Assembly: GCF_035751725.1 (NCBI RefSeq)
Contig: NZ_CP142104.1
Location: 5,332,001 to 5,396,000 of the forward strand
DNA: 64,000 bases
Source of the DNA: Pseudomonas frederiksbergensis
Lineage (GTDB): Bacteria > Pseudomonadota > Gammaproteobacteria > Pseudomonadales > Pseudomonadaceae
Reading direction: 5' to 3'
Of the stretch, positions 52,285 through 64,000 are shown piece by piece. The notes under the pieces were generated by a model. That model ran no database searches. It saw nothing but the letters and a program-made list of their open reading frames with translations, and had not been told where the DNA came from. A program made the translations under genes and the position numbers. Each line of letters opens with the position of its first letter. Positions within the stretch are counted from its first letter, which is position 1.

Positions 52285-52361
52285 GGGCCCATAGCTCAGT
52301 TGGTTAGAGCAGAGGACTCATAATCCTTTGGTCCACGGTTCGAGTCCGTGTGGGCCCACCA
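52285..52361 (+). tRNA. tRNA with CAT anticodon, probably tRNA-Ile2
   Basis: A 77-nt cloverleaf with an encoded CCA end: acceptor GGGCCCA/TGGGCCC, D arm GCTC/GAGC, anticodon stem GAGGA/TCCTT with loop CTCATAA (anticodon at 52319-52321), and T stem CACGG/CCGTG. The CAU anticodon with a body like E. coli ileX points to the lysidine-modified Ile tRNA that reads AUA; elongator tRNA-Met is the alternative. It is the integration target of the island, and its 3' half is the probable attL. Confidence 0.93.
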
Positions 52362-52366
52362 ACTCC

Positions 52367-52390
52367 AAAGCCGCGCATTGCGCGGCTTTT
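52367..52390 (+). terminator. Terminator of the tRNA gene
   Basis: AAAGCCGCGC paired with GCGCGGCTTT around a 3-nt loop, followed by a short T run. Confidence 0.9.
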
Positions 52391-52433
52391 GCGTTTCTGG
52401 CGGAACCATCGCGGATACAGTCCTATGGTCCAA

Positions 52434-52451
52434 AGGTACAAATTAGGTACA
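52434..52451. repeat. Direct repeats AGGTACA upstream of the integrase
   Basis: Two AGGTACA words 11 bp apart (52434 and 52445), about one helical turn. They may be arm-type integrase or excisionase sites; this is inferred from position only. Confidence 0.4.
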
Positions 52452-52487
52452 GTGCGGCTTCGCTTGCACGCCTTTGGAGTCCTTCAT

Positions 52488-53558
52488 ATGGCCACAATCG
52501 TCAAAACCCCTGCCGGCACCTGGAAGGCCGTAATCCGCAAAACCGGATGGCCGACCAACGCCAAAACCTTCCGCACCAAACGCGACGCCGAAGACTGGTC
52601 ACGACGCACCGAAGACGAAATGGTGCGCGGCGTGTACATCCAACGCAGTGGCTCCGAGCGACTGACGCTCGAGAAGGCGCTTCAGCAATACCTACGTGAA
52701 GTGAGCCCTACCAAGAAGCCCACAACGCAGAGAGCGGAAGCAACCAAGGCGCAGCAACTGATACGCCACCTGGGGAAGTATTCCCTCGCGGCGTTATCGT
52801 CCGAAGTGATCGCCAACTATCGCGATACCCGACTGGGCTCACTCACCAACCGCGGCAATCCCACGAGTAACAACACCGTGCGGCTGGAGCTAGCTTTACT
52901 GAGCCACCTGTTCACGGTTGCGATTCAAGAGTGGGGCCTTGGACTAACCTTTAACCCTGTGCTCAATATTCGTAAGCCGAGCCCAGGCGAAGGTCGTGAC
53001 CGTCGTCTATCCCCAGAGGAGGAACGACGACTACTGGCAGCCGTGAACAACCACAGCAACCCCATGCTTGGGTGGATCGTCCGTATCGCTCTGGAAACGG
53101 GAATGCGCTCTTCGGAAATCACAGGCCTACGTCGCCACCAAATCGATCTCAAAAGACGCGTGGTCCGCCTCTCAGATACCAAGAACGACAGCGCACGTAC
53201 TGTTCCTCTAAGCAGGCTGGCAACGGCGACTTTCCAGGCCGCACTTGAGAACCCTACCCGGCCACAGGATTGCGATCTTGTATTCTTCGGCGAGCCTGGG
53301 AAGGACGGAAAACGACGTCCCTATGCGTTTACCAAAATCTGGGGAGTGCTCAAAAAGAAGTTCGGAATGCCTGACTTGCGCTTTCACGACTTACGACATG
53401 AGGCGGTTAGTCGATTCGTTGAGGGAGGACTTTCTGATCAGGAGGTGTCAGCTATCAGTGGGCATAAATCCATGCAAATGCTGAAACGCTACACCCATCT
53501 CCGGGCTGAAGATCTGGTAGGCCGGCTAGATCGGATAAAAAAATTAAAAACTGCATGA
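52488..53558 (+). CDS. int: Tyrosine recombinase / island integrase
   Basis: 356 residues. An N-terminal arm/core-binding region (SAM-like, about 60-160) is followed by the catalytic domain: Arg in LETGMRSSEITGL, HDLRHEAVSRF (His, Arg), SGHKSMQML (His) and the nucleophilic Tyr in LKRYTHLR. Start is ATG 52488, after TTGGAGT; the open frame upstream runs back into the tRNA. Located 127 bp from the tRNA end and reading into the island, typical of tRNA-targeted elements. Confidence 0.95.
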   Translation: MATIVKTPAGTWKAVIRKTGWPTNAKTFRTKRDAEDWSRRTEDEMVRGVYIQRSGSERLTLEKALQQYLREVSPTKKPTTQRAEATKAQQLIRHLGKYSLAALSSEVIANYRDTRLGSLTNRGNPTSNNTVRLELALLSHLFTVAIQEWGLGLTFNPVLNIRKPSPGEGRDRRLSPEEERRLLAAVNNHSNPMLGWIVRIALETGMRSSEITGLRRHQIDLKRRVVRLSDTKNDSARTVPLSRLATATFQAALENPTRPQDCDLVFFGEPGKDGKRRPYAFTKIWGVLKKKFGMPDLRFHDLRHEAVSRFVEGGLSDQEVSAISGHKSMQMLKRYTHLRAEDLVGRLDRIKKLKTA

Positions 53559-53797
53559 AATATTTCTATCTAGACGACCACATCAATAAATTTCGCAACT
53601 AGCTGATATACAAATAATTAAACCCACCCGACAAGTAACAAAAAACCAAAACAATATATTTTGGCAAACACAAATATCTATTCTTGGAAATTACCAATAG
53701 ATCAACATGGTCAAGAGAGCGACGTTCCAGCATTTGACCAAACAAACACCAAGCAGAAGAATACGTCCACTTACCCATAACTTAGGTGGACTTACAA
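53559..53797. promoter_or_regulatory. AT-rich region before the HTH gene, with a dyad over the RBS
   Basis: A clearly AT-rich gap, unlike the core genome. GTCCAC at 53765-53770 is inverted at 53786-53791 (GTGGAC), and the right arm overlaps the AGGTGGA Shine-Dalgarno of the next gene. This is either an operator or an RNA hairpin that hides the ribosome site. Confidence 0.5.
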
Positions 53798-54040
53798 ATG
53801 ACAACAGAAGAATACATGCTCGAGCGATTTGGCCCGCTTATGAGCATCGCGGATATTGCTTCGCTATTGGGACGCTCTCCAGATGGAGTTCGAGTAGCTC
53901 TTTACTCAAATACTGATGTGTCCCGAAAACTACATCCCACGATGATGAGGGTGGGACGCCGAGTCTATTTCCGCACACTACAGGTTAAAGATGCCCTTGC
54001 ACTGGATAGCGACAGCACTTCCCAGGAAACGCATCAATGA
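53798..54040 (+). CDS. Small helix-turn-helix DNA-binding protein
   Basis: 80 residues, with an HTH-type segment SIADIASLLGRSPDGVRVALYS. It resembles AlpA/MerR-like excisionase or plasmid-associated regulators. The ATG at 53798 is preferred over GTG 53786 because AGGTGGA precedes it. It overlaps the next gene by 4 nt (ATGA). A role as excision or replication regulator is inferred. Confidence 0.75.
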   Translation: MTTEEYMLERFGPLMSIADIASLLGRSPDGVRVALYSNTDVSRKLHPTMMRVGRRVYFRTLQVKDALALDSDSTSQETHQ

Positions 54041-54942
54041 AACAGGACGATCGCAAAGAGCCGCAACCAAGCTCGGCGATCAGAGTAAAACGCCGTGCGT
54101 ATTCGTCGGTCCCCGACGACATTTTGACTGACAGACGCTTGAGCTGGAGAGCCCGTATTGTCCTGTCATGGATGCTTGGGCGCAGTCCTGAATTTGAGTT
54201 GCGAATCGGCCCTATACGTAGACTATTCGGACTTAGCGAGCAGCAGTGGTCGAAGGTTCGCTGGGAACTACAAAATACAGGCTACTTCCAGCAAGAGCGT
54301 GTACAGGGTGAACATGGGAAATTCGTATGGTTCCACGTAGTCACCGACACTCCAGAGATTCCATCCCCTACAAAACCAGGGGATGGTTCTCCACAGACTG
54401 GTGGACCAGAGGGTGGCAAGCCATCGCATGGAGGAACTGGGGATATACCAACTAGACGTTCTACCAATTACGAAAGAACCAAAAAGATAAATACCACTAC
54501 AACAGATACGGTGAATTCAAACACCAACCGCGAATCGCTGATATGGCCTCGCCTATCAGAGTCCGAAAAAAACGCTATTGCAGATTTGCTAGCAGGGATA
54601 CCTCAGAAAAGGGCGCAAGAATTGCTCGACGAACTTGCGAGTGCATTGGAAGCGCAAAGCATCAGAACAAGCCCTAGCAGATGGTTTAGAGCTGTGGTTT
54701 CTCGATGCAAGAAAGGTGAGTTCAACCCAGTGGGAGCACTAGCCATTGCAGCCAAGCGCAATGCATCAACCACTTCAAAATCTGCCAAGCCAATCAAAGC
54801 AGCGCCAAGCTCACCTTATCGTGCTCAATGTCATATGCAGGAGATTAAAGCGTTGCTTGGATTAAGGGGTTCGTCTTCTACGGATCGAGCGGAAAGCGTG
54901 ACCGCCGTTTTTTCATCTCAACAAAAAGAGTGGCAACCATGA
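54037..54942 (+). CDS. Winged-helix protein, replication-initiator-like
   Basis: 301 residues. The N-terminal part (VPDDILTDRRLSWRARIVLSWML, then IRRLFGLSEQQWSKVRWELQNTGYF) looks like the winged-helix domain of phage or plasmid replication proteins. A Pro/Gly-rich linker (about 105-140) follows, then a helical C-terminal half. GC content is below the core level. Coupled at both ends by 4-nt overlaps. The function is a guess from the domain look only. Confidence 0.65.
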   Translation: MKQDDRKEPQPSSAIRVKRRAYSSVPDDILTDRRLSWRARIVLSWMLGRSPEFELRIGPIRRLFGLSEQQWSKVRWELQNTGYFQQERVQGEHGKFVWFHVVTDTPEIPSPTKPGDGSPQTGGPEGGKPSHGGTGDIPTRRSTNYERTKKINTTTTDTVNSNTNRESLIWPRLSESEKNAIADLLAGIPQKRAQELLDELASALEAQSIRTSPSRWFRAVVSRCKKGEFNPVGALAIAAKRNASTTSKSAKPIKAAPSSPYRAQCHMQEIKALLGLRGSSSTDRAESVTAVFSSQQKEWQP

Positions 54943-55673
54943 AGGATTTCTCTGTCTCTCTCACTTTCATCGTCAGCATCACCATGTTGCCGGCCGCCTA
55001 CGCTCAAATTCCCGTAACGGTGACAACCCAGGCAAGTGACTCGCCAATGACCATGGCCGAATTCGCGGCCAACACAGCGCGCTGGGCACAGCAAGTCGAG
55101 CAGATGACTTCGCAAATCGACCAGATGAAACAGCAATACCAGTCGATCACCGGATCGCGTGGCCTGGGCACCATCATGAATAACCCGGCTCTTCGCGATT
55201 ACCTGCCGCAAGACTGGCAGCAGGTCTACGACTCAGTACAGAGCGGCGGCTATGCCGGCTTGAGTGGAAGGGCGGCCCAGATCTACAACGACAGAAAGGT
55301 CTACGACGCCTGCTCGCAGTTCACGACAACCCAGCAGAAAACCTCATGCCAAGCCCAGGCGGTAAAGCCGTCGCAAGACAAGGCTTTCGCCCTGGACGCC
55401 TACGACGCAGCCAAAGGCCGCTTGAGGCAGATCGACCAGCTGATGGGAAAGATCAACGACACCGCAGATCCCAAGGCTATCGCAGAGCTACAGAGTCGGA
55501 TTTCGGCCGAGCAAGCGATGATTCAGAACGAGCAAACCAAGCTCCAGATGTACCAGATGGTGGCCCAGGCCGAAGACCGCTTGCAGAGGCAACAACAGCG
55601 AGAAATCAATGCGCAGCTCGTCGATAAGCGCGGGCATTCGAGATTGCAAACCTTCAACCCACTTGACCAGTAA
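54939..55673 (+). CDS. VirB5-like (TrbJ-type) type IV secretion protein
   Basis: 244 residues. Signal peptide MKDFSVSLTFIVSITMLPAA-YAQ, then a long helical, Gln-rich mature region (ARWAQQVEQMTSQIDQMKQQYQSI) typical of P-type conjugation VirB5/TrbJ proteins, which sit at the pilus tip. It overlaps the previous stop (ATGA). Confidence 0.82.
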   Translation: MKDFSVSLTFIVSITMLPAAYAQIPVTVTTQASDSPMTMAEFAANTARWAQQVEQMTSQIDQMKQQYQSITGSRGLGTIMNNPALRDYLPQDWQQVYDSVQSGGYAGLSGRAAQIYNDRKVYDACSQFTTTQQKTSCQAQAVKPSQDKAFALDAYDAAKGRLRQIDQLMGKINDTADPKAIAELQSRISAEQAMIQNEQTKLQMYQMVAQAEDRLQRQQQREINAQLVDKRGHSRLQTFNPLDQ

Positions 55674-55683
55674 GGGGAATGCA

Positions 55684-56118
55684 ATGCCAATTTTTTATGT
55701 TCTTTCCATTGCCGTCGCGAGCTTTTACGCGAGCTTAATTATCAGCTTTTGGCTGGCCGTGCGCCGCTTCGGAAAGCTCAAGGCCGCCTATCGCCGGGAG
55801 TGGCAGGTTTTCAATTTCGACGTAATTGGGACCTCCTGGGCCTCACTGGTTATTTTCTGGGCTGCATATGACTGGCTTGACCTGCCCACCAGAGGATTCG
55901 AAAGCTGGGAGTGCTGCTTCTATGCGGTCATTTCAAGTATCGCAGCGGTGGGTATGGGCTACTTCAACGGTCGCGAACGATTCACCAACCCCACTCATGC
56001 CGGCATAGCTGAATCCGCACTCCGATTTCTTGCAGCTCGACACATCATTACGGCAGCCGAGGTAGCGCATGCCCTGCGCGCAATGCCGCAGCCCATTACA
56101 TCGGGAGTGAAGAAATGA
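55684..56118 (+). CDS. Hypothetical membrane protein within the T4SS cluster
   Basis: 144 residues with about three hydrophobic stretches (FYVLSIAVASFYASLIISFWL; WASLVIFWAAYDWL; FYAVISSIAAVGMGYF) and a soluble C-terminus. No family recognised. GGGG precedes the ATG. It lies between virB5-like and eexN and overlaps eexN by 4 nt. Confidence 0.75.
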   Translation: MPIFYVLSIAVASFYASLIISFWLAVRRFGKLKAAYRREWQVFNFDVIGTSWASLVIFWAAYDWLDLPTRGFESWECCFYAVISSIAAVGMGYFNGRERFTNPTHAGIAESALRFLAARHIITAAEVAHALRAMPQPITSGVKK

Positions 56119-56375
56119 AAAAGGTCTCCTTCGTTCTCGCGGTCGCAGTCATCCTGGCCGGCTGTGGCGAAAGCACGCCAGTTCAAACCGTTGACTGGTA
56201 CAAGAATCACGATGCGGAACGTAAAGGCATGATCCTCAAGTGTGAGGAAAATCCGGGCGAACTGGCAACGACGCCGAACTGTATCAACGCCAAAACCGCG
56301 GACAATCATCTAGCGGTCGATAAACGGGACTACCTCAGGTTGGTCCCATCCAATCCACTGAAAGGAGGCCAGTGA
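56115..56375 (+). CDS. eexN: EexN family entry-exclusion lipoprotein
   Basis: 86 residues, with the lipobox LAGC after a short signal sequence. The mature part WYKNHDAERKGMILKCEENPGEL, then NCINAK, is characteristic of EexN. Such lipoproteins block entry of a related conjugative element. Position between VirB5 and VirB6 is standard for conjugative plasmids. Confidence 0.88.
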   Translation: MKKVSFVLAVAVILAGCGESTPVQTVDWYKNHDAERKGMILKCEENPGELATTPNCINAKTADNHLAVDKRDYLRLVPSNPLKGGQ

Positions 56376-56376
56376 C

Positions 56377-57429
56377 ATGGAGTGGACCGTATTTCAATGG
56401 ATCGGCGGAAGCCTGGACGCGATGCTGAGCACCTTCGTTTCGCAAACGGCATCGAATGTGATTTTGGGTTTTCAGTTGACGATACTTACCTGCGTCACTC
56501 TCTACATCACGTTGACAGGCTATGCGATCAGCTCCGGCGCGATGGAAGCGCCTTTTCCAACGTTCCTCAAACAATGCATCAAGATCAGCATCATCGCTGC
56601 TTTTTGCATGACGGCAGATTCCTATACAGCAACGGTAGTATCGGCGATTCACGGATTAGAAAGTGGTCTAGCCAACATTGTGTCCACATCGAATGCGCAC
56701 TCCACCAATATCTATCAGGTGCTGGACGAATCGATGAACAAAGGGCTCAACGTTGCTTATGACATGCTCGGCAAAGCGGCAAAACGGGAGTTCTATGAGC
56801 TGGGACAAATGTTCTGGGATGCCCTAAACGCGCTTCTGATGGCGCTGGCAGTGTTTCTGATCCATCTGCCGGCCGCAGCAACCATAATTCTGGCTAAGCT
56901 TGGCCTGGGCGTGCTGCTGGGAATCGGCCCCATATTCATCGCTGCACTTATGTTCCCCGTCACTGCCCAGTGGTTCGACCGCTGGTTCCAGCAAGCGCTT
57001 TCATTCGCTTTGGAGATCGCCATCGCGATGGTGGTTGTCACTGTCGGGGTTGCCCTCTTCAAACACCTTTTCGATCAGGTAATTGTCGTAGGCGATGACA
57101 ACCCCATCACCTCTTTTTCCCAAATTCTGGCGACAGCCCTCCTCATATTCTTTGCACTTAAGAAAACGAGCGGGCTGGGCTCATCCTTGGCCGGAGGTAT
57201 TTCGTTCGGAGCTGTCACCTTCCGCAACATGGCCGATGCCGTTGGGAACGTTGTCAATCCGAAAACGACGCGGCGTGATATGCAGTCCGGGATGATGGTC
57301 ACAGCAGGTCGCACCAACCACATGGTGGCAGGCAATACAGTTTGGAATCCGGCCTACCGTCAGCACGTCTTGCAAAACCTTGGGAAGAACTGGGGCCCCG
57401 CAACGGGTGGCTCCGTTAAAGGTAGTTGA
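56377..57429 (+). CDS. VirB6/TrbL-like type IV secretion channel protein
   Basis: 350 residues with several transmembrane helices (e.g. ILGFQLTILTCVTLYITLTGYA; LLMALAVFLIHLPAAATIILAKLGLGVLLGIGPIFIAALMF). The GIGPIFIAALMFPVTAQWFDRWFQQALSFALE region is typical of VirB6. Start ATG 56377 follows AAAGGAGG. No other vir genes follow in the window. Confidence 0.88.
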   Translation: MEWTVFQWIGGSLDAMLSTFVSQTASNVILGFQLTILTCVTLYITLTGYAISSGAMEAPFPTFLKQCIKISIIAAFCMTADSYTATVVSAIHGLESGLANIVSTSNAHSTNIYQVLDESMNKGLNVAYDMLGKAAKREFYELGQMFWDALNALLMALAVFLIHLPAAATIILAKLGLGVLLGIGPIFIAALMFPVTAQWFDRWFQQALSFALEIAIAMVVVTVGVALFKHLFDQVIVVGDDNPITSFSQILATALLIFFALKKTSGLGSSLAGGISFGAVTFRNMADAVGNVVNPKTTRRDMQSGMMVTAGRTNHMVAGNTVWNPAYRQHVLQNLGKNWGPATGGSVKGS

Positions 57430-57908: not shown

Positions 57909-58144
57909 CAGCCAGCCCTACCGTCCAATCCACATGATTTAAATTTTACCCGGTAAGCCAACACAAGACGATTGCGTGAAGAAACTAGGTCGATCGAGCA
58001 AAGACACCACCTAGTATCAATGCCTCCGACGACTGCGAACGGTCCAGATCACAGCTAAAAATTTCGTCATGACGAAATTTTCGAGAAGGGACACCGGCTC
58101 GATAATAACGCGCACCTTCTTTTCGATCATCCTGGAGAAAACCC
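57909..58144. promoter_or_regulatory. Intergenic region with a 24-nt perfect palindrome
   Basis: A perfect palindrome at 58058-58081 (core ATTTCGTCATGACGAAAT) lies 63 nt before the ATG at 58145. It is the longest copy of the island's TCATGA-centred dyad and is here without the GCAGGATAGGC box, so it may be an operator. Confidence 0.75.
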
Positions 58145-58384
58145 ATGACATCATCAAAGCTCTCACTTGCTATGCGCGACAAAGCCACTAAGCTGCAAAA
58201 TCAAATGGTTGACGTAATGGAACGCTTTGCAAATGAGAATCCCGACATTCCTGCGCAGATCTTAATGGCAGGACTTGGACAATTAGTCGTCCAATTTTCG
58301 GTCAGCCAGGTTGGCCCAGACATGACCATCCGATTCCTCGATGATTTAAGAGAGGCTGTCCGAAGAATCGAACAGGCGCATTAG
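58145..58384 (+). CDS. Small helical hypothetical protein
   Basis: 79 residues: MTSSKLSLAMRDKATKLQNQ, amphipathic helices, no recognised family. Start supported by GGAGAAAACCC. It lies between the two inverted repeat copies, opposite in direction to the antitoxin. Confidence 0.65.
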   Translation: MTSSKLSLAMRDKATKLQNQMVDVMERFANENPDIPAQILMAGLGQLVVQFSVSQVGPDMTIRFLDDLREAVRRIEQAH

Positions 58385-58477
58385 TTCCTACCCGTTCGAG
58401 CCCCTTGAGCTGGCGAAGCGCGCATCGGGATGGTTGGAAAATGCCGTTTCCAGAGTCTCTACCGCTTTCTGGCTGTA

Positions 58478-58691
58478 ATCGGGGTCAAGGGCGGAACCGG
58501 AGGCCGCAGCCGCGAGCGTAGCGAGTGGACCGGGCGAGGATGCCGGCGAAGCGTACCCTTGATGCCGATGGAGTGCCCGCACCCTTCGGGCGGGATTGCT
58601 GGAGAGTTTTTCCTCCTGCAACCCTGCTACCGGCGAGGGCGGAGAGTCCAGAGGCGCAGCGCCCCTTTGGGCAAGCCCGAAGGGCGCGCAG
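58478..58691 (-). repeat. Large inverted repeat, copy B
   Basis: Inverted copy of 57441-57656; see the 69-nt identical block at 58497-58565. The two copies bracket about 820 bp holding the antitoxin and the 79-residue gene. Confidence 0.9.
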
Positions 58692-58780
58692 TCTGATCCA
58701 TTCCATTTTGCTTCACAATTCACTCGACACTTCTTGTTCGCGTTCTGCAAAACCACGTTTCTTTCCCCAAGCTCGGCATT

Positions 58781-58840
58781 CCTTCGTCATGACTAAGGAT
58801 TGGAGGCCTGAGAGGGCTATTGCAGGATAGGCAGACGCCG
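58781..58840 (+). repeat. Composite repeat unit 1
   Basis: Degenerate dyad CCTTCGTCATGACTAAGG, then GCAGGATAGGC starting 33 nt after the central ATG, then ACGCCG. Confidence 0.8.
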
Positions 58841-58963
58841 TTAAAGCGTATTACACAACGCTTGCTCAATACCGCAGCATCACAGTTACTACCACCTCCG
58901 TTCCTTAATACGAGGCAAGATAAAAACAATCGAGCAATCCCTAATGCTCGTAGCCAATAGAAA

Positions 58964-59033
58964 TTTCGTCATGACGAAAAAATCGGATCACGAAGGTGCT
59001 AGGGAGGGCTACAGCAGGATAGGCGTTCGCCGG
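58964..59033 (+). repeat. Composite repeat unit 2
   Basis: Perfect TTTCGTCATGACGAAA (58964-58979), then GCAGGATAGGC at a 43-nt spacing (59014), then CGCCGG. Confidence 0.85.
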
Positions 59034-59090
59034 GAATGTGACACCCACTACACCGGTCTACCTCCTAAGGCAGTCTCAATCGTCTGCTCT

Positions 59091-59150
59091 CTCCTCATAA
59101 CCAAGGTAGCAAACGCGTAGATGGACTAGTGCAGGATAGGCAAGACGCCG
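59091..59150 (+). repeat. Composite repeat unit 3
   Basis: Decayed dyad CTCCTCATAACCAAGG, then GGACTAGTGCAGGATAGGC at a 34-nt spacing (box at 59131), then ACGCCG. Confidence 0.75.
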
Positions 59151-59212
59151 TGACTTCGTCATACAGGCTCATTCTGAGTGAGCAAAACCGCTTCTCTCAT
59201 TAGCGGCGAAAA

Positions 59213-59282
59213 TTTCGTCATGACGAAAAAACACAATGTGCAGGCGCTACGGAGGGCTAAGGCAGGACAGGCCAAGCGCCGG
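59213..59282 (+). repeat. Composite repeat unit 4
   Basis: Perfect TTTCGTCATGACGAAA (59213-59228), then GCAGGACAGGC at a 42-nt spacing (59262), then GCGCCGG. Confidence 0.85.
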
Positions 59283-59656: not shown

Positions 59657-60021
59657 GGAGATCGTCCTTGAGTACTGGTGTGGGAAGACTAGCTGAACAC
59701 GCCGCTGGCTGGAGCCACTTCTCCAGATCCGCTGACGTCTGGGTATTTGCCCTGACTTGATGACTCATTTGCAATCGACCTAACCAGCCATTTGCAACGG
59801 ATTTGCCCCCCCTAGCAACCATGACCGGCAGTGAACCGGCCAAAAGCGGACATTCACTATTTAAGAAATCTGGGGCGATTCAAACGGCCGATTGTAGTCA
59901 TTGGTTGCTCCACGATTCTCTACCGGTCAATGCTTTACTGGCGAATCAGCGTTGGGGCAGCCACGGGGCGGCGTAGTATCATCCTAATGCGTACCTACCG
60001 ACGCCCTCGGAGCCAATTCAC
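59657..60021. promoter_or_regulatory. Upstream region of the two-gene unit
   Basis: 365 bp without a convincing gene. The segment around 59820-59860 (ACCGGCAGTGAACCGGCC, then AAAAGCGGACATTCA) resembles a dispersed intergenic sequence of Pseudomonas; this recognition is from memory. GTAGTATCAT near 59973 could serve as a -10 region. Confidence 0.4.
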
Positions 60022-60921
60022 ATGGACATGATCCGGTTCAACGATTTTTACCTACGCCTTTACAGAGCCAACCTTGAGCAAGATGGTGAGGCCTTGCTGG
60101 GCGAGTTCTATGCCCTCTGGCGCGAGGCGGAAACCTCCGGAGTTGAGGCCAACACCCTGGTAGATGAGGCAAAGAACTGCCTCCATCGGGTTGCGTCTAC
60201 TGACTTGTTTGTCCTGGCTGCCTGCGAATGGATCGGTGACAAAGGCCACCACAGGCTGAGCAAAGCGTTGGCGCACGAGGTCAGCGTCCAGTACCTCCAA
60301 CATCCCAAGTTGGTGAGGTTCGCGCTGTCCGGAGCCACAGAGGCATCCACCAGCGCTGTGGCCCGTAGATTGTGTGCCTTGAACGTTTCTGTACCAGTAT
60401 CACTTGGCTGGGTGTTGAGCTTGAACGAAGACCTCCCCCCAAGCCCTCTGATTTCTGCAACGACCTGTGTGGTCATCGATTTTTTGGCGACAGAGTACCC
60501 AGCCACCTGCAAACGTCTCCTTGAAGCAGATCCCTCACCGCTTGCTCAGTCAACTCCCGCCAAGCACCTGGGCGAAAGGCTGTCCGCCGAAAGCAGCGCC
60601 TTGGACGCCCTGCCCCACCTCACTGAGCTACAGATGTCATCGGAAATGCGGCGGAGCTTCAGCTACCTTCGCCGGAATGAGAATCGGGCGGTGGCGGAGA
60701 AGGCTCACGGCGAATCCCTGTTCGAAATGTTCATGACCGCGCAGCATTTCAAGTATTCCAACCAAGTATCAGTGGAATATCAGAACGATCACGAGACCGT
60801 CGAGGCGATGATCCCCATGTTCACGCAGGAAATGAGTATTGAATTGCCTCAGACCTGGATTGCCGACCCATTGCTATATGACCAGAAGATCATGAGCCTA
60901 TGGAAGGAAGCTGACCAATGA
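60022..60921 (+). CDS. Uncharacterised protein, first gene of a coupled two-gene unit
   Basis: 299 residues: MDMIRFNDFYLRLYRANLEQ, predicted mainly alpha-helical, soluble, no signal peptide or transmembrane segment. No known domain or motif is recognised. GGAG (60009-60012) lies 9 nt before ATG 60022; a second ATG at 60028 is possible. Its stop overlaps the next ATG by 4 nt (60918-60921), so the two products are probably made together and may form a complex. Role in defence is only inferred from the island setting and its partner. Confidence 0.8.
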   Translation: MDMIRFNDFYLRLYRANLEQDGEALLGEFYALWREAETSGVEANTLVDEAKNCLHRVASTDLFVLAACEWIGDKGHHRLSKALAHEVSVQYLQHPKLVRFALSGATEASTSAVARRLCALNVSVPVSLGWVLSLNEDLPPSPLISATTCVVIDFLATEYPATCKRLLEADPSPLAQSTPAKHLGERLSAESSALDALPHLTELQMSSEMRRSFSYLRRNENRAVAEKAHGESLFEMFMTAQHFKYSNQVSVEYQNDHETVEAMIPMFTQEMSIELPQTWIADPLLYDQKIMSLWKEADQ

Positions 60922-62603
60922 GCATCCAACTGGTTCTCTCACACTACCTTTCGGGGCTTCGCGAGCGCGATGAGCTGGATGCACTCCTTCCAGAGCTTCT
61001 CCAAGCGATGGGGCATTCGGTGCACAGTCGTGCCCAGATTGGCGTGAATCAGGGTGGTGTCGACGTTATGTCCACCAAGGAGGATGCTCAGGGGCAAACG
61101 GAAGTTTTCCTGTTCATCATCAAATTTGGCAATGTGAACCGGAACGACTTCTATGGCACTCAGCAGGCGATTTCGCCCTCCATCCGCCAAGCGTATACCG
61201 AGTACGTCCGGAATCGGCTGCAAGAGCCTCTGCGGGGCCTAAAAAAGCGAATCGTCCTGATTTCAAACGGCATCCTCAAGCAAGACGCACAGTCAGATTA
61301 CTCGGCAATCTCGAAGGAGGTGGTCGAATTCTCTCCTCTATGCTCGCTGGATTTCTGGGGCATGGATCAGTTGAGTCCCTACATCGAGGAGTACCTCTTT
61401 GACGATGCCTTGCTGCTCGGGAAAGGCAAATCCGACCTGAGGGCAGCCTTGGCCGGGCTTGAGGATACGCAGGCTTCATTCTCCAGATTCGTTCGGTTTG
61501 TTGATGACTGCATGGCCGCACTTGGGGATGACAAGGACGTGTCAGAAAATACGCGTGCGAACCGCTTCCACAAGCGAGCAGCGGCAGCGGGCATGGGGTG
61601 GGCTGTGCTTCTCGTCTGGGGCGAAAGTGAGGGTAATCAGAAACCAGGCGTGCTCGCAGGTGAGTACCTTTTGCTACGCCTCTGGAGCGAATCGATAACG
61701 CTTGGCCTGCAGACCGACATTCAGTTCCTCAAACGTTTCGAAACGCTTGCTCGGCTCCATGCGAACGCCTTATTACGGTACTACGAGCGCGTGATGCCGT
61801 CGCTCCTGAACCGCAGACGCATGCTCCGCTATCGCCCCGATCAGGTGCTCTACATCGACTTGATTTGCGATGAGCTTGGCCGGTTGGGCACCACACTGCT
61901 GTTGCTTCAGTCCCTGAAGGTCGATACCGCAACTCTCCGAGCCATGCACGGCTGCCTGGTGTCCTTCATCAACGCGCACAACGGATGCTTGCTACCCGTC
62001 TATGACGGACAAGCCATTGACCTTTCGATAGCCATGACCGCGATCATGGCCGTGGGTGATACAGCCAGCACCCAACTCATGGTGCGTGAGTGCATTGATC
62101 GCTTTGATGCCGCTCTGCATCGGAACAGGATCATGCCGGTGGATACCGATGATCTTGAAGATGCCATGGCCCTGTTCTCCGGGAAAGAAACCCAAAGAGG
62201 TCGATTCTTCAAAACCACGACTTTGGTGCCGCTCCTGGGAACCATGGCTGCTCTGCTGGGCGACCAGGAGGCCCTCGATCAATTGACTGCGGAGATTGTT
62301 CCAAATCTTGAAGGGGTAACCAAGGAAAGGTGGTTCCCCAAAAAGGCACTGCAGATGCTGACGGGTTCCGATGCCTACGTGAATGCCATTGGCATATCAC
62401 GTGCCCTGACTGGCTTTCGGCCGACGCCAGATGATGAGGTTGAGGCTTCTGTGAACGTGCCGAGCCAGGCCGCCTCCCCAGAGGATTTCGCTTGGCACAA
62501 CACCACCTGGGAAGTGCTGATTGCGATCTCAGCTAGGTTGCACCGCCATCCTTTGCCTACCTGGTACGTTGCAAAGCTTGCCAAAGTACATCCGACGCTT
62601 TGA
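60918..62603 (+). CDS. Large protein with restriction-nuclease-like N-terminus, second gene of the unit
   Basis: 561 residues. Residues about 15-165 follow the order of an Mrr/PD-(D/E)XK fold. They comprise a helix (LLPELLQAMGHSV), GGVDVMS with Asp49, a strand ending FIIKFG with Lys69, then KKRIVLISNGILKQDA, and a last element LDFWGMDQLSPYIEEYL. The usual Glu/Gln two residues before the Lys is Ile67, so the active site is atypical or inactive. The remaining 400 residues are helical and unrecognised. Coupled to the upstream gene by ATGA. A nuclease-type effector with a helical sensor or scaffold is one reading; none is proven. Confidence 0.82.
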   Translation: MSIQLVLSHYLSGLRERDELDALLPELLQAMGHSVHSRAQIGVNQGGVDVMSTKEDAQGQTEVFLFIIKFGNVNRNDFYGTQQAISPSIRQAYTEYVRNRLQEPLRGLKKRIVLISNGILKQDAQSDYSAISKEVVEFSPLCSLDFWGMDQLSPYIEEYLFDDALLLGKGKSDLRAALAGLEDTQASFSRFVRFVDDCMAALGDDKDVSENTRANRFHKRAAAAGMGWAVLLVWGESEGNQKPGVLAGEYLLLRLWSESITLGLQTDIQFLKRFETLARLHANALLRYYERVMPSLLNRRRMLRYRPDQVLYIDLICDELGRLGTTLLLLQSLKVDTATLRAMHGCLVSFINAHNGCLLPVYDGQAIDLSIAMTAIMAVGDTASTQLMVRECIDRFDAALHRNRIMPVDTDDLEDAMALFSGKETQRGRFFKTTTLVPLLGTMAALLGDQEALDQLTAEIVPNLEGVTKERWFPKKALQMLTGSDAYVNAIGISRALTGFRPTPDDEVEASVNVPSQAASPEDFAWHNTTWEVLIAISARLHRHPLPTWYVAKLAKVHPTL

Positions 62604-62900
62604 CCGCACTCACCGGATCAACCTGACCCTCGTCATCGATGAAGAGGGCTCGGGCACTACCAGACGAGCCTTGAGCTAGACAATTTATAGGATGGGTACA
62701 TGTCTATTCAATGAGGCTGCCCACCTATTCCAGTGTGAACCGTCCCTAGTTTTAGAGACCGTCCACTTCTGGCCGATTTCTGACAGCCAGGGTTAACCAG
62801 TGTGCTGGACAAATCCGAGGCAAACGACTGTCCAGGTCGAATGAAAATGGATCGGCACGTGAATGCAAACGGGTGGTCAGGTGGAGTGCAATTACCCGTC
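62604..62900. other. Gene-free stretch downstream of the two-gene unit
   Basis: About 300 bp. No gene with credible start and composition on either strand. An antisense frame (62708-63061) crosses the repeat units and is not protein-like. Confidence 0.6.
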
Positions 62901-62956
62901 CCCTCCCCAAGTAGTAACGGTGTAGGTGGACTAGTGCAGGATAGGCAAAGCACCGG
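62901..62956 (+). repeat. Composite repeat unit 5
   Basis: The dyad is largely lost (CCCTCCCCAAG). GGACTAGTGCAGGATAGGC matches unit 3 closely (box at 62936, equivalent spacing 33), followed by CACCGG. Confidence 0.75.
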
Positions 62957-62986
62957 GGTTTTACGCGGGTAGATTCCACCTACAGT

Positions 62987-63047
62987 TTTCGTCATGACGA
63001 AATTACACCAGGCGTGAGCGGCTAGTGCAGGATAGGCCAACCACCGG
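62987..63047 (+). repeat. Composite repeat unit 6
   Basis: Perfect TTTCGTCATGACGAAA (62987-63002), GCAGGATAGGC at a 33-nt spacing (63027), then CCACCGG. Confidence 0.85.
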
Positions 63048-63777: not shown

Positions 63778-64000
63778 ATGAGAGAAACCGATATAAAACG
63801 TATATTTGCACATCACCTTCTGAAAAAGGAGACAACTGAAGTTGTCTTTTTTGAATACGCATTTCATTTTGGACGGCGCCGTGCAGACGCAATATCTGTA
63901 GAAGATGGAATGGTCATAGGGTACGAAATAAAGTCTGCTTTTGACCGTATAGACAGACTGGAGGAGCAGTTGAAATCATATGCGCAATTATTTGATTACG
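63778..64000 (+). CDS. sce7726-type PD-(D/E)XK protein, 3' end outside window
   Basis: The frame is open from ATG 63778 to the window end (74 codons). It starts MRETDIKRIFAHHLLKKE. RRADAISVEDGMVIGYEIKS supplies Asp37, Glu50 and Lys52, a complete PD-(D/E)XK pattern (D...ExK). This matches the sce7726 family as I know it, often paired with sce7725. AT-rich, unlike the core genome. No strong Shine-Dalgarno is seen. Confidence 0.7.
   Translation, partial: MRETDIKRIFAHHLLKKETTEVVFFEYAFHFGRRRADAISVEDGMVIGYEIKSAFDRIDRLEEQLKSYAQLFDY

Follow-up and report, generated by a model that had tools for sequence, protein, structure and literature searches.

The gene pair at the locus

Two adjacent genes on the plus strand form the core of the locus described here, which lies in a window of 64,000 nucleotides (the whole stretch of DNA that was analysed) from the genome of Pseudomonas frederiksbergensis. 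The first gene, oloA, occupies positions 60022..60921 and codes for a protein of 299 aa, and the second, oloB (60918..62603), codes for a protein of 561 aa. Both reading frames are real, as the first-pass annotation had read them, and overlap by the four nucleotides ATGA, which hold the stop codon of the first ORF and the start codon of the second. Because an NTGA overlap is kept at all 21 homologous loci of the short type defined below (19 ATGA, 2 GTGA), it is not a product of chance. The same annotation had left the whole first product and 400 residues of the second unrecognised, which did not hold up: the PADLOC models of the Olokun defence system recognise both proteins, and no other PADLOC models matched them at E-values up to 5. 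Pfam gave no match for OloA or OloB at its cut-off, NCBIfam gave zero matches for the two proteins, and PHROGs yielded nothing usable (best matches for the pair at E 0.36 and 0.15). Each family is represented in the 6.0-Mb genome by a single match, both at 60022-62603.

Residues 4-548 of OloB aligned with positions 2-547 of the 556 positions of the PADLOC OloB profile (E 1.7e-75), and a profile-profile comparison (hhalign) of the OloB proteins of the short and long types gave a probability of 100 and an E-value of 8.3e-63 over 541 columns. The match of OloA to its PADLOC model (E 4.6e-15) covered only profile positions 309-589 of 596, which is the C-terminal half, and the same half only was matched by two further short OloA proteins (from loci L017 and L021). 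A profile built from 63 OloA sequences of the short type and one built from 14 of the long type aligned with a probability of 99.3 (E 1e-20), the short protein lying on residues 297-570 of a long OloA of 578 aa. The 63 sequences consisted of 49 of the 81 listed relatives from a protein search, 13 from the loci and the window copy; long OloA proteins are missing among the 81 because the search reported only lengths of 0.55-1.75x the query. The protein search with OloB, with scoring restricted to the 7,997 candidates that had most words in common with it, resulted in at least 223 relatives, and 29 of the best 120 of 223 that were listed were aligned together with the window copy (n=30). The OloA model of PADLOC is not fully specific, with matches in two of 14 control genomes (OloB model: 0/14) and in two genomes of the genus that lack OloB (E 2.5e-4 and 4.6e-4). 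Judged from these sequence comparisons, the pair almost certainly represents Olokun homologues with a half-length OloA.

A compact subtype with half-length OloA

Scanning the contig database for OloB homologues yielded 43 loci in addition to the window copy, 21 of a short type and 22 of a long type, and every one of them contained an adjacent OloA match. The window OloB is 42-99% identical (best segment) to those of the 21 short-type loci; identities to the long type were 22-31% at 21 of the 22 loci, and 39% over 128 residues at locus L043. An upstream OloA ORF of 288-325 aa was present at all 21 short-type loci, a range into which the 299 aa of the window copy fit, and a whole upstream ORF of 577-698 aa was found at 15 of the 22 long-type loci. 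The remaining seven were analysed by tblastn, which gave full-length matches to long OloA at L022, L040 and L037 (the latter with an ORF of just 401 aa), matches in two pieces at L027 and L031, and matches reaching the end of the locus at L030 and L038. Two of the long-type oloA genes look broken, namely those at L031:6281-8001, matched in two pieces, and at L037:6268-8001, where the tblastn match exceeds the ORF.

Searched with a profile of the roughly 290 residues that make up the N-terminal OloA half, the 22 short-type loci including the window gave nothing, and 21 of the 22 long-type loci gave a match, the one miss, L038, being cut by the contig end. The profile of the C-terminal half matched at 22/22 loci of either type. 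The search area for the N-terminal half was the whole window and, elsewhere, as much as 8 kb to either side of OloB, with shorter flanks at the contig ends of L007, L009, L016 and L020. A separate nearby gene for the N-terminal half was also considered and rejected, as the N-half profile detected none and the OloA matches in the window's own genome are confined to this locus. Because the N-terminal half is absent, we filed the pair as a variant and not as canonical Olokun.

In a tree of OloB (42 rows), the 22 short-type rows form one side of a single branch with a support of 100/100, at a split where, according to a warning of the program, long branches meet. The underlying alignment of 43 rows omits L040, which has no whole ORF, and the tree and the 42-row counts given below also omit the truncated L043. 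Because the tree is unrooted, either the long type may have gained the N-terminal half or the short type may have lost it. A divergent long-type pair at G288:C22:1223-4314 shows OloB and OloA scores between those of the short and canonical types and could help to root the split.

Residues 1-198 of the window OloA (60022..60615, plus strand) are predicted to form a helical-repeat solenoid of the HEAT/ARM type, followed by a C-terminal region (residues 199-299; 60616..60918, plus strand) with residues common to short and long OloA. When 22 short sequences were aligned with 15 long ones, E202 and P283 were conserved in 37/37, S232 in 36, E274 in 35 and Y245 in 34, and for these five positions the MAFFT alignment agrees with the profile-profile alignment. 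MAFFT placed the N-terminus of the short proteins at the start of the long ones, which leaves the conservation of W70, S133 and P160 unsure; because of this misplacement, we took the OloA boundary from the PADLOC match, the profile-profile alignment and the N-half profile. The structure model of OloA has low confidence at about residues 200-270.

The nuclease-like domain of OloB

The first-pass annotation had seen an N-terminal region resembling REases in the second product, and the fold prediction indeed contains an REase core at moderate confidence, with pLDDT block means of 56-86 over residues 1-170 and poorly modelled stretches at residues 39-45 and 78-82; a confident fold lacking such a core was not obtained. 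The top fold matches were FokI, AF1548 and MspJI, of which the FokI match rests on VIA-align, and a Foldseek search with the OloB model returned nothing at E 0.001 or better. A PDB profile search with OloB gave six matches without a nuclease among them and no detectable sequence homology to FokI, and the Pfam REase families searched against 24 OloB domains gave none at cut-off, the closest being Mrr_cat with one of the 24 (E 0.025). Matches of HEAT_IPO9_c to three of the 24 domains (E up to 0.011) were taken as spurious. Based on the model, a domain of REase fold is very likely present in OloB; it is followed by a mostly helical region (residues 175-555; 61440..62582, plus strand).

The motifs of the domain, named as in the accessible part of PMC1913061, are conserved across both types. 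E16, E19, D21, D49, K69 and R75 are invariant in 43/43 sequences including the window copy. Motif I would be provided by a glutamate in the first core helix, with E16 and E19 (codons within 60963..60974, plus strand) as candidates for the metal-binding acid, motif II by the aspartate D49 (61062..61064, plus strand), and the motif III lysine by K69 (61122..61124, plus strand). The two residues D49 and K69 are as the earlier reading had them, and so is I67 (61116..61118, plus strand) at the motif III position two before the lysine, which is usually D, E or Q. That I67 would be a peculiarity of this gene was not borne out, since D, E, Q or N occurs at this position in 0/43 sequences: the short-type proteins carry V or I in 22/22, and the long-type ones S, T or V in 21/21. 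As all 43 sequences have one of V, I, S and T at position 67, we do not claim a canonical PD-(D/E)XK active site. Invariant positions are concentrated in the nuclease-like domain, with 19/170 there and 8/391 in the remainder of the protein (42 rows).

Catalysis by this domain is, in our estimate, reasonably probable. We consider it rather unlikely that the REase core is catalytically dead and uses D49 and K69 for nucleic-acid binding or for structure, the system then blocking or sequestering, for instance through binding of phage DNA ends, instead of cutting. The absence of the motif III acid in 43/43 sequences means that the site may not cut, and zero known nuclease families match the OloB sequence at cut-off, both of which such a core would account for. 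However, E16, E19, D49 and K69 have remained invariant in 43/43 sequences although the domains of 13 long-type OloB proteins are only 30-36% identical to that of the window copy, as would be expected of an active site. Moreover, other PD-(D/E)XK families are described in the accessible part of PMC1913061 as having moved or substituted motif III residues, although there it is mostly the lysine that moves and not the acid.

Cassette, composite repeats and island

The pair is contained in a block of 2,950 bp (59837..62786, plus strand) which P. mediterranea CFBP 5447 also has, at 97.4% identity (blastn, E 1e-5). Beyond this block, a blastn comparison of the locus of that strain (L001, 17.7 kb) with 28 kb around the pair gave no match, and the ends of the block fall between the genes and the repeat arrays on either side. 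From this comparison, the oloAB unit appears to move as a 2.95-kb cassette within a defence island.

Composite repeats bracket the pair on both sides, as had been recognised earlier, with a left array at 58046..59281, just outside the cassette, and a right array of the same kind of repeat at 62906..63046. Each repeat consists of the 16-bp palindrome TTTCGTCATGACGAAA, a spacer and a GCAGGAYAGGC box, in this order. The palindrome occurs in four copies in the 6.0-Mb genome, all at this locus, and in four of 397 other same-genus genomes, in three of which the box lies nearby. The composite repeat may be a recombination site of the island or a regulatory element.

The left side of the island adjoins dnaG, rpoD and a gene for a DibA-like c-di-GMP phosphodiesterase, followed by a tyrosine recombinase and, after it, a weakly matching STY4528-like replication protein, VirB5 and a VirB6-like gene; the part of the window concerned in the island comparison below is 52350-57429 and beyond. 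Among the ten window proteins tested, none was named as another type IV secretion component. VirB5 and VirB6 without further components would be an unusual combination. Two further islands of the genus (L097, G051:C1:1534700-1554600, and L098, G163:C1:4813200-4833100) adjoin the same dibA-like gene and resemble the window island in the recombinase, with about 85% identity along most of the protein, in VirB5 (66-71%) and in the VirB6-like protein (42-43%). Both also carry composite repeats, and their other gene content differs from that of the window island; one of the two also shares the far flank, where the genes for an Lrp-type regulator and an amine oxidase-like protein match at 86-88%. Going by these sequences, it looks as if one chromosomal slot beside the dibA-like gene were used by an island family with exchangeable cargo.

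Distribution among genomes, plasmids and phages

The short clade ranges over Pseudomonas, Enterobacterales, Betaproteobacteria, Lysobacteraceae and Geobacteraceae. Among 398 same-genus genomes drawn from a larger group, 17 contained an OloB match, two of them a fragment only (G021, G036). The other 15 genomes carry 17 intact oloB genes, 13 of the long type (including the divergent one of G288 and three in G282) and four of the short type. OloA lies beside OloB in all 17 intact cases, which together with the 43/43 loci of the contig database bears out the conserved pairing that a survey of homologues had been expected to reveal. The genes are paired and patchy in their occurrence (17/398), not singletons of core genomes, and this is the pattern of accessory genes. 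The three long-type Olokun pairs of G282 lie within about 70 kb of one genome (G282:C1:466216-535309).

OloB matches were also present in 35 plasmid records, 21 of them at 52-54% identity, and four of four plasmids inspected from these 21 have a gene of 903 bases upstream of oloB, which corresponds to the length of a short oloA. On a conjugative plasmid of K. michiganensis (L096, 4410-10335), umuC and umuD flank the short pair in a region that also carries antirestriction genes, as if the pair had been inserted into the umuDC region. Among 5,426 genomes of E. coli, a short-type query from Rahnella gave two matches, each of which has an integrase upstream that adjoins ssrA in one case; in the other, the reverse transcriptase of retron Ec67 lies downstream. 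Phages were considered as carriers and rejected, with 0 matches in 50,697 phage records.

Defence neighbourhood

The pair had been described as standing alone in its island, which is not the case once the DNA beyond the window edge is included. A gene matching the PADLOC model cll, which we take to be sce7726-like, starts at 63778-64000 and continues at L047:779-1387 (E 2.4e-19), followed on the opposite strand by beta/PD-Lambda-2_C-like and capP-like genes. Further to the right of the window, a Septu-like pair (L047:4894-7310) matches PtuA (E 3e-160) and PDC-M01B (E 7.9e-99), and the PDC-M01B protein beside PtuA is taken to be a PtuB-like partner. By these matches, the defence island appears to extend past the window.

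Neighbourhoods rich in defence genes, another expectation of the first-pass annotation, were indeed found around the short-type loci. The 150 proteins flanking 21 short loci matched 207 PADLOC models at 1e-10, and 135 control proteins, taken from 20 arbitrarily chosen stretches in ten genomes of the genus, matched five; because many models overlap and models rather than genes are counted, these numbers indicate a direction and not a ratio. The flank sample comprised 152 proteins within 5 kb, minus L004:1616-6196 and L021:942-4019, and came from several groups; the control sample comprised 135 of 227 proteins of one genus. None of the PADLOC flank models listed matches more than two of the 150 proteins. 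Pfam matches among the flanking proteins included phage integrase (three), AbiU2 HEPN (two) and N6/N4 DNA methylase (two), and housekeeping genes too.

The proposal of a candidate new defence system therefore stands in its first part only. A defence role is supported by the Olokun matches, the predicted REase core and the flanking genes, and the operon matched is a defence operon, not one of another known function; the claim of novelty falls, as the pair is an Olokun with half-length OloA.

Proposed function and alternative explanations

Taken as a whole, the locus is probably best explained as an Olokun variant with half-length OloA, which travels as a mobile cassette and resides in a defence island, with OloB as an atypical nuclease effector and OloA as its helical-repeat partner. 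OloB, the effector in this reading, would combine a nuclease domain of the PD-(D/E)XK fold with the helical C-terminal region, and its putative active site would consist of a helix-1 glutamate (E16 or E19), D49 and K69, the second acid missing family-wide. OloA would act as a helical-repeat sensor or adaptor which may bind OloB via its conserved C-terminal part, and we infer that the two would form a complex and that the window copy would be active against phages. From the pairing and coupling of the genes, our guess is that OloA gates OloB, which would be switched on upon encountering a phage product or phage-altered nucleic acid. The N-terminal half of canonical OloA would have been lost, or never gained, in the compact variant; as the variant lacks this half, it should not be needed for the core function, and it probably broadens or tunes sensing.

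It is improbable that the short form is a separate system built from Olokun parts, with another trigger and another outcome such as anti-plasmid or anti-mobile-element activity. The absent N-terminal half of OloA fits such a system, as do the deep split in OloB (22-31% identity to the long type at 21/22 loci vs 42-99% to the short type), the 21 plasmid records with OloB at 52-54% and the pair between umuC and umuD near antirestriction genes. OloB is nevertheless homologous over its full length, the gene order is identical, and so are the invariant residues, all of which argue for the same system. Decay of a canonical copy by loss of the 5' half of oloA, suggested by the match of OloA to half its model, has a negligible chance of being right: both ORFs are intact, the 299 aa lie within the clade range of 288-325 aa, no N-terminal remnant occurs in the searched DNA, and the half-length OloA at 22/22 loci of a single clade in several lineages refutes it.

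As a tentative joint picture extending the Olokun variant reading, Olokun may be a nuclease-based defence that relies on an atypical OloB active site (helix-1 glutamate, D49 and K69, without the motif III acid) and comes in two subtypes; the compact one, with half-length OloA, would spread as a cassette among Pseudomonas islands and Enterobacterales plasmids, and the N-terminal OloA half would be a removable sensing module. The comparison of short and long forms suggests, at the level of sequence, which part may cut nucleic acids and which part can be lost, and it leads to testable claims on the likely effector, the residues to mutate and the dispensable half of OloA. With an OloA of about 300 aa vs 577-698 aa, the compact form is a natural minimal Olokun and suits structural studies better. 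Defence callers could overlook this subtype if they demand that most of the OloA model be covered.

Comparison with known systems

Compared to the FokI cleavage domain, I67 of OloB stands at the place of the second acid, D467 of FokI, and the fold match comes without detectable sequence homology. The Mrr-like and MspJI-like REases (Pfam Mrr_cat, MspJI, AF1548) have a motif III Q or E which is absent from OloB, where the short type has V/I at this position and 18 of the 21 long-type proteins have S/T.

The closest known system is Olokun (OloA-OloB; PADLOC PDLC03925, PDLC03926), reportedly first described by Millman et al. in 2022. Like Olokun, the window pair consists of two adjacent genes in identical order, OloB being homologous over its full length and OloA over its C-terminal half, and both genes of this two-gene system are present, the OloA homologue lying directly upstream of OloB on the same strand and coupled to it by the 4-nt overlap. 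In contrast to canonical Olokun, for which the OloA model has 596 positions, the N-terminal half of OloA is absent. In the accessible parts of PMC10121019, PMC12629846, PMC12926258 and PMC12592470, Olokun appears as a name in surveys, its mechanism given as unknown or the system as not characterised in depth. No description of a subtype with half-length OloA was found in the searchable literature, a scope outside which the founding Olokun paper lies.
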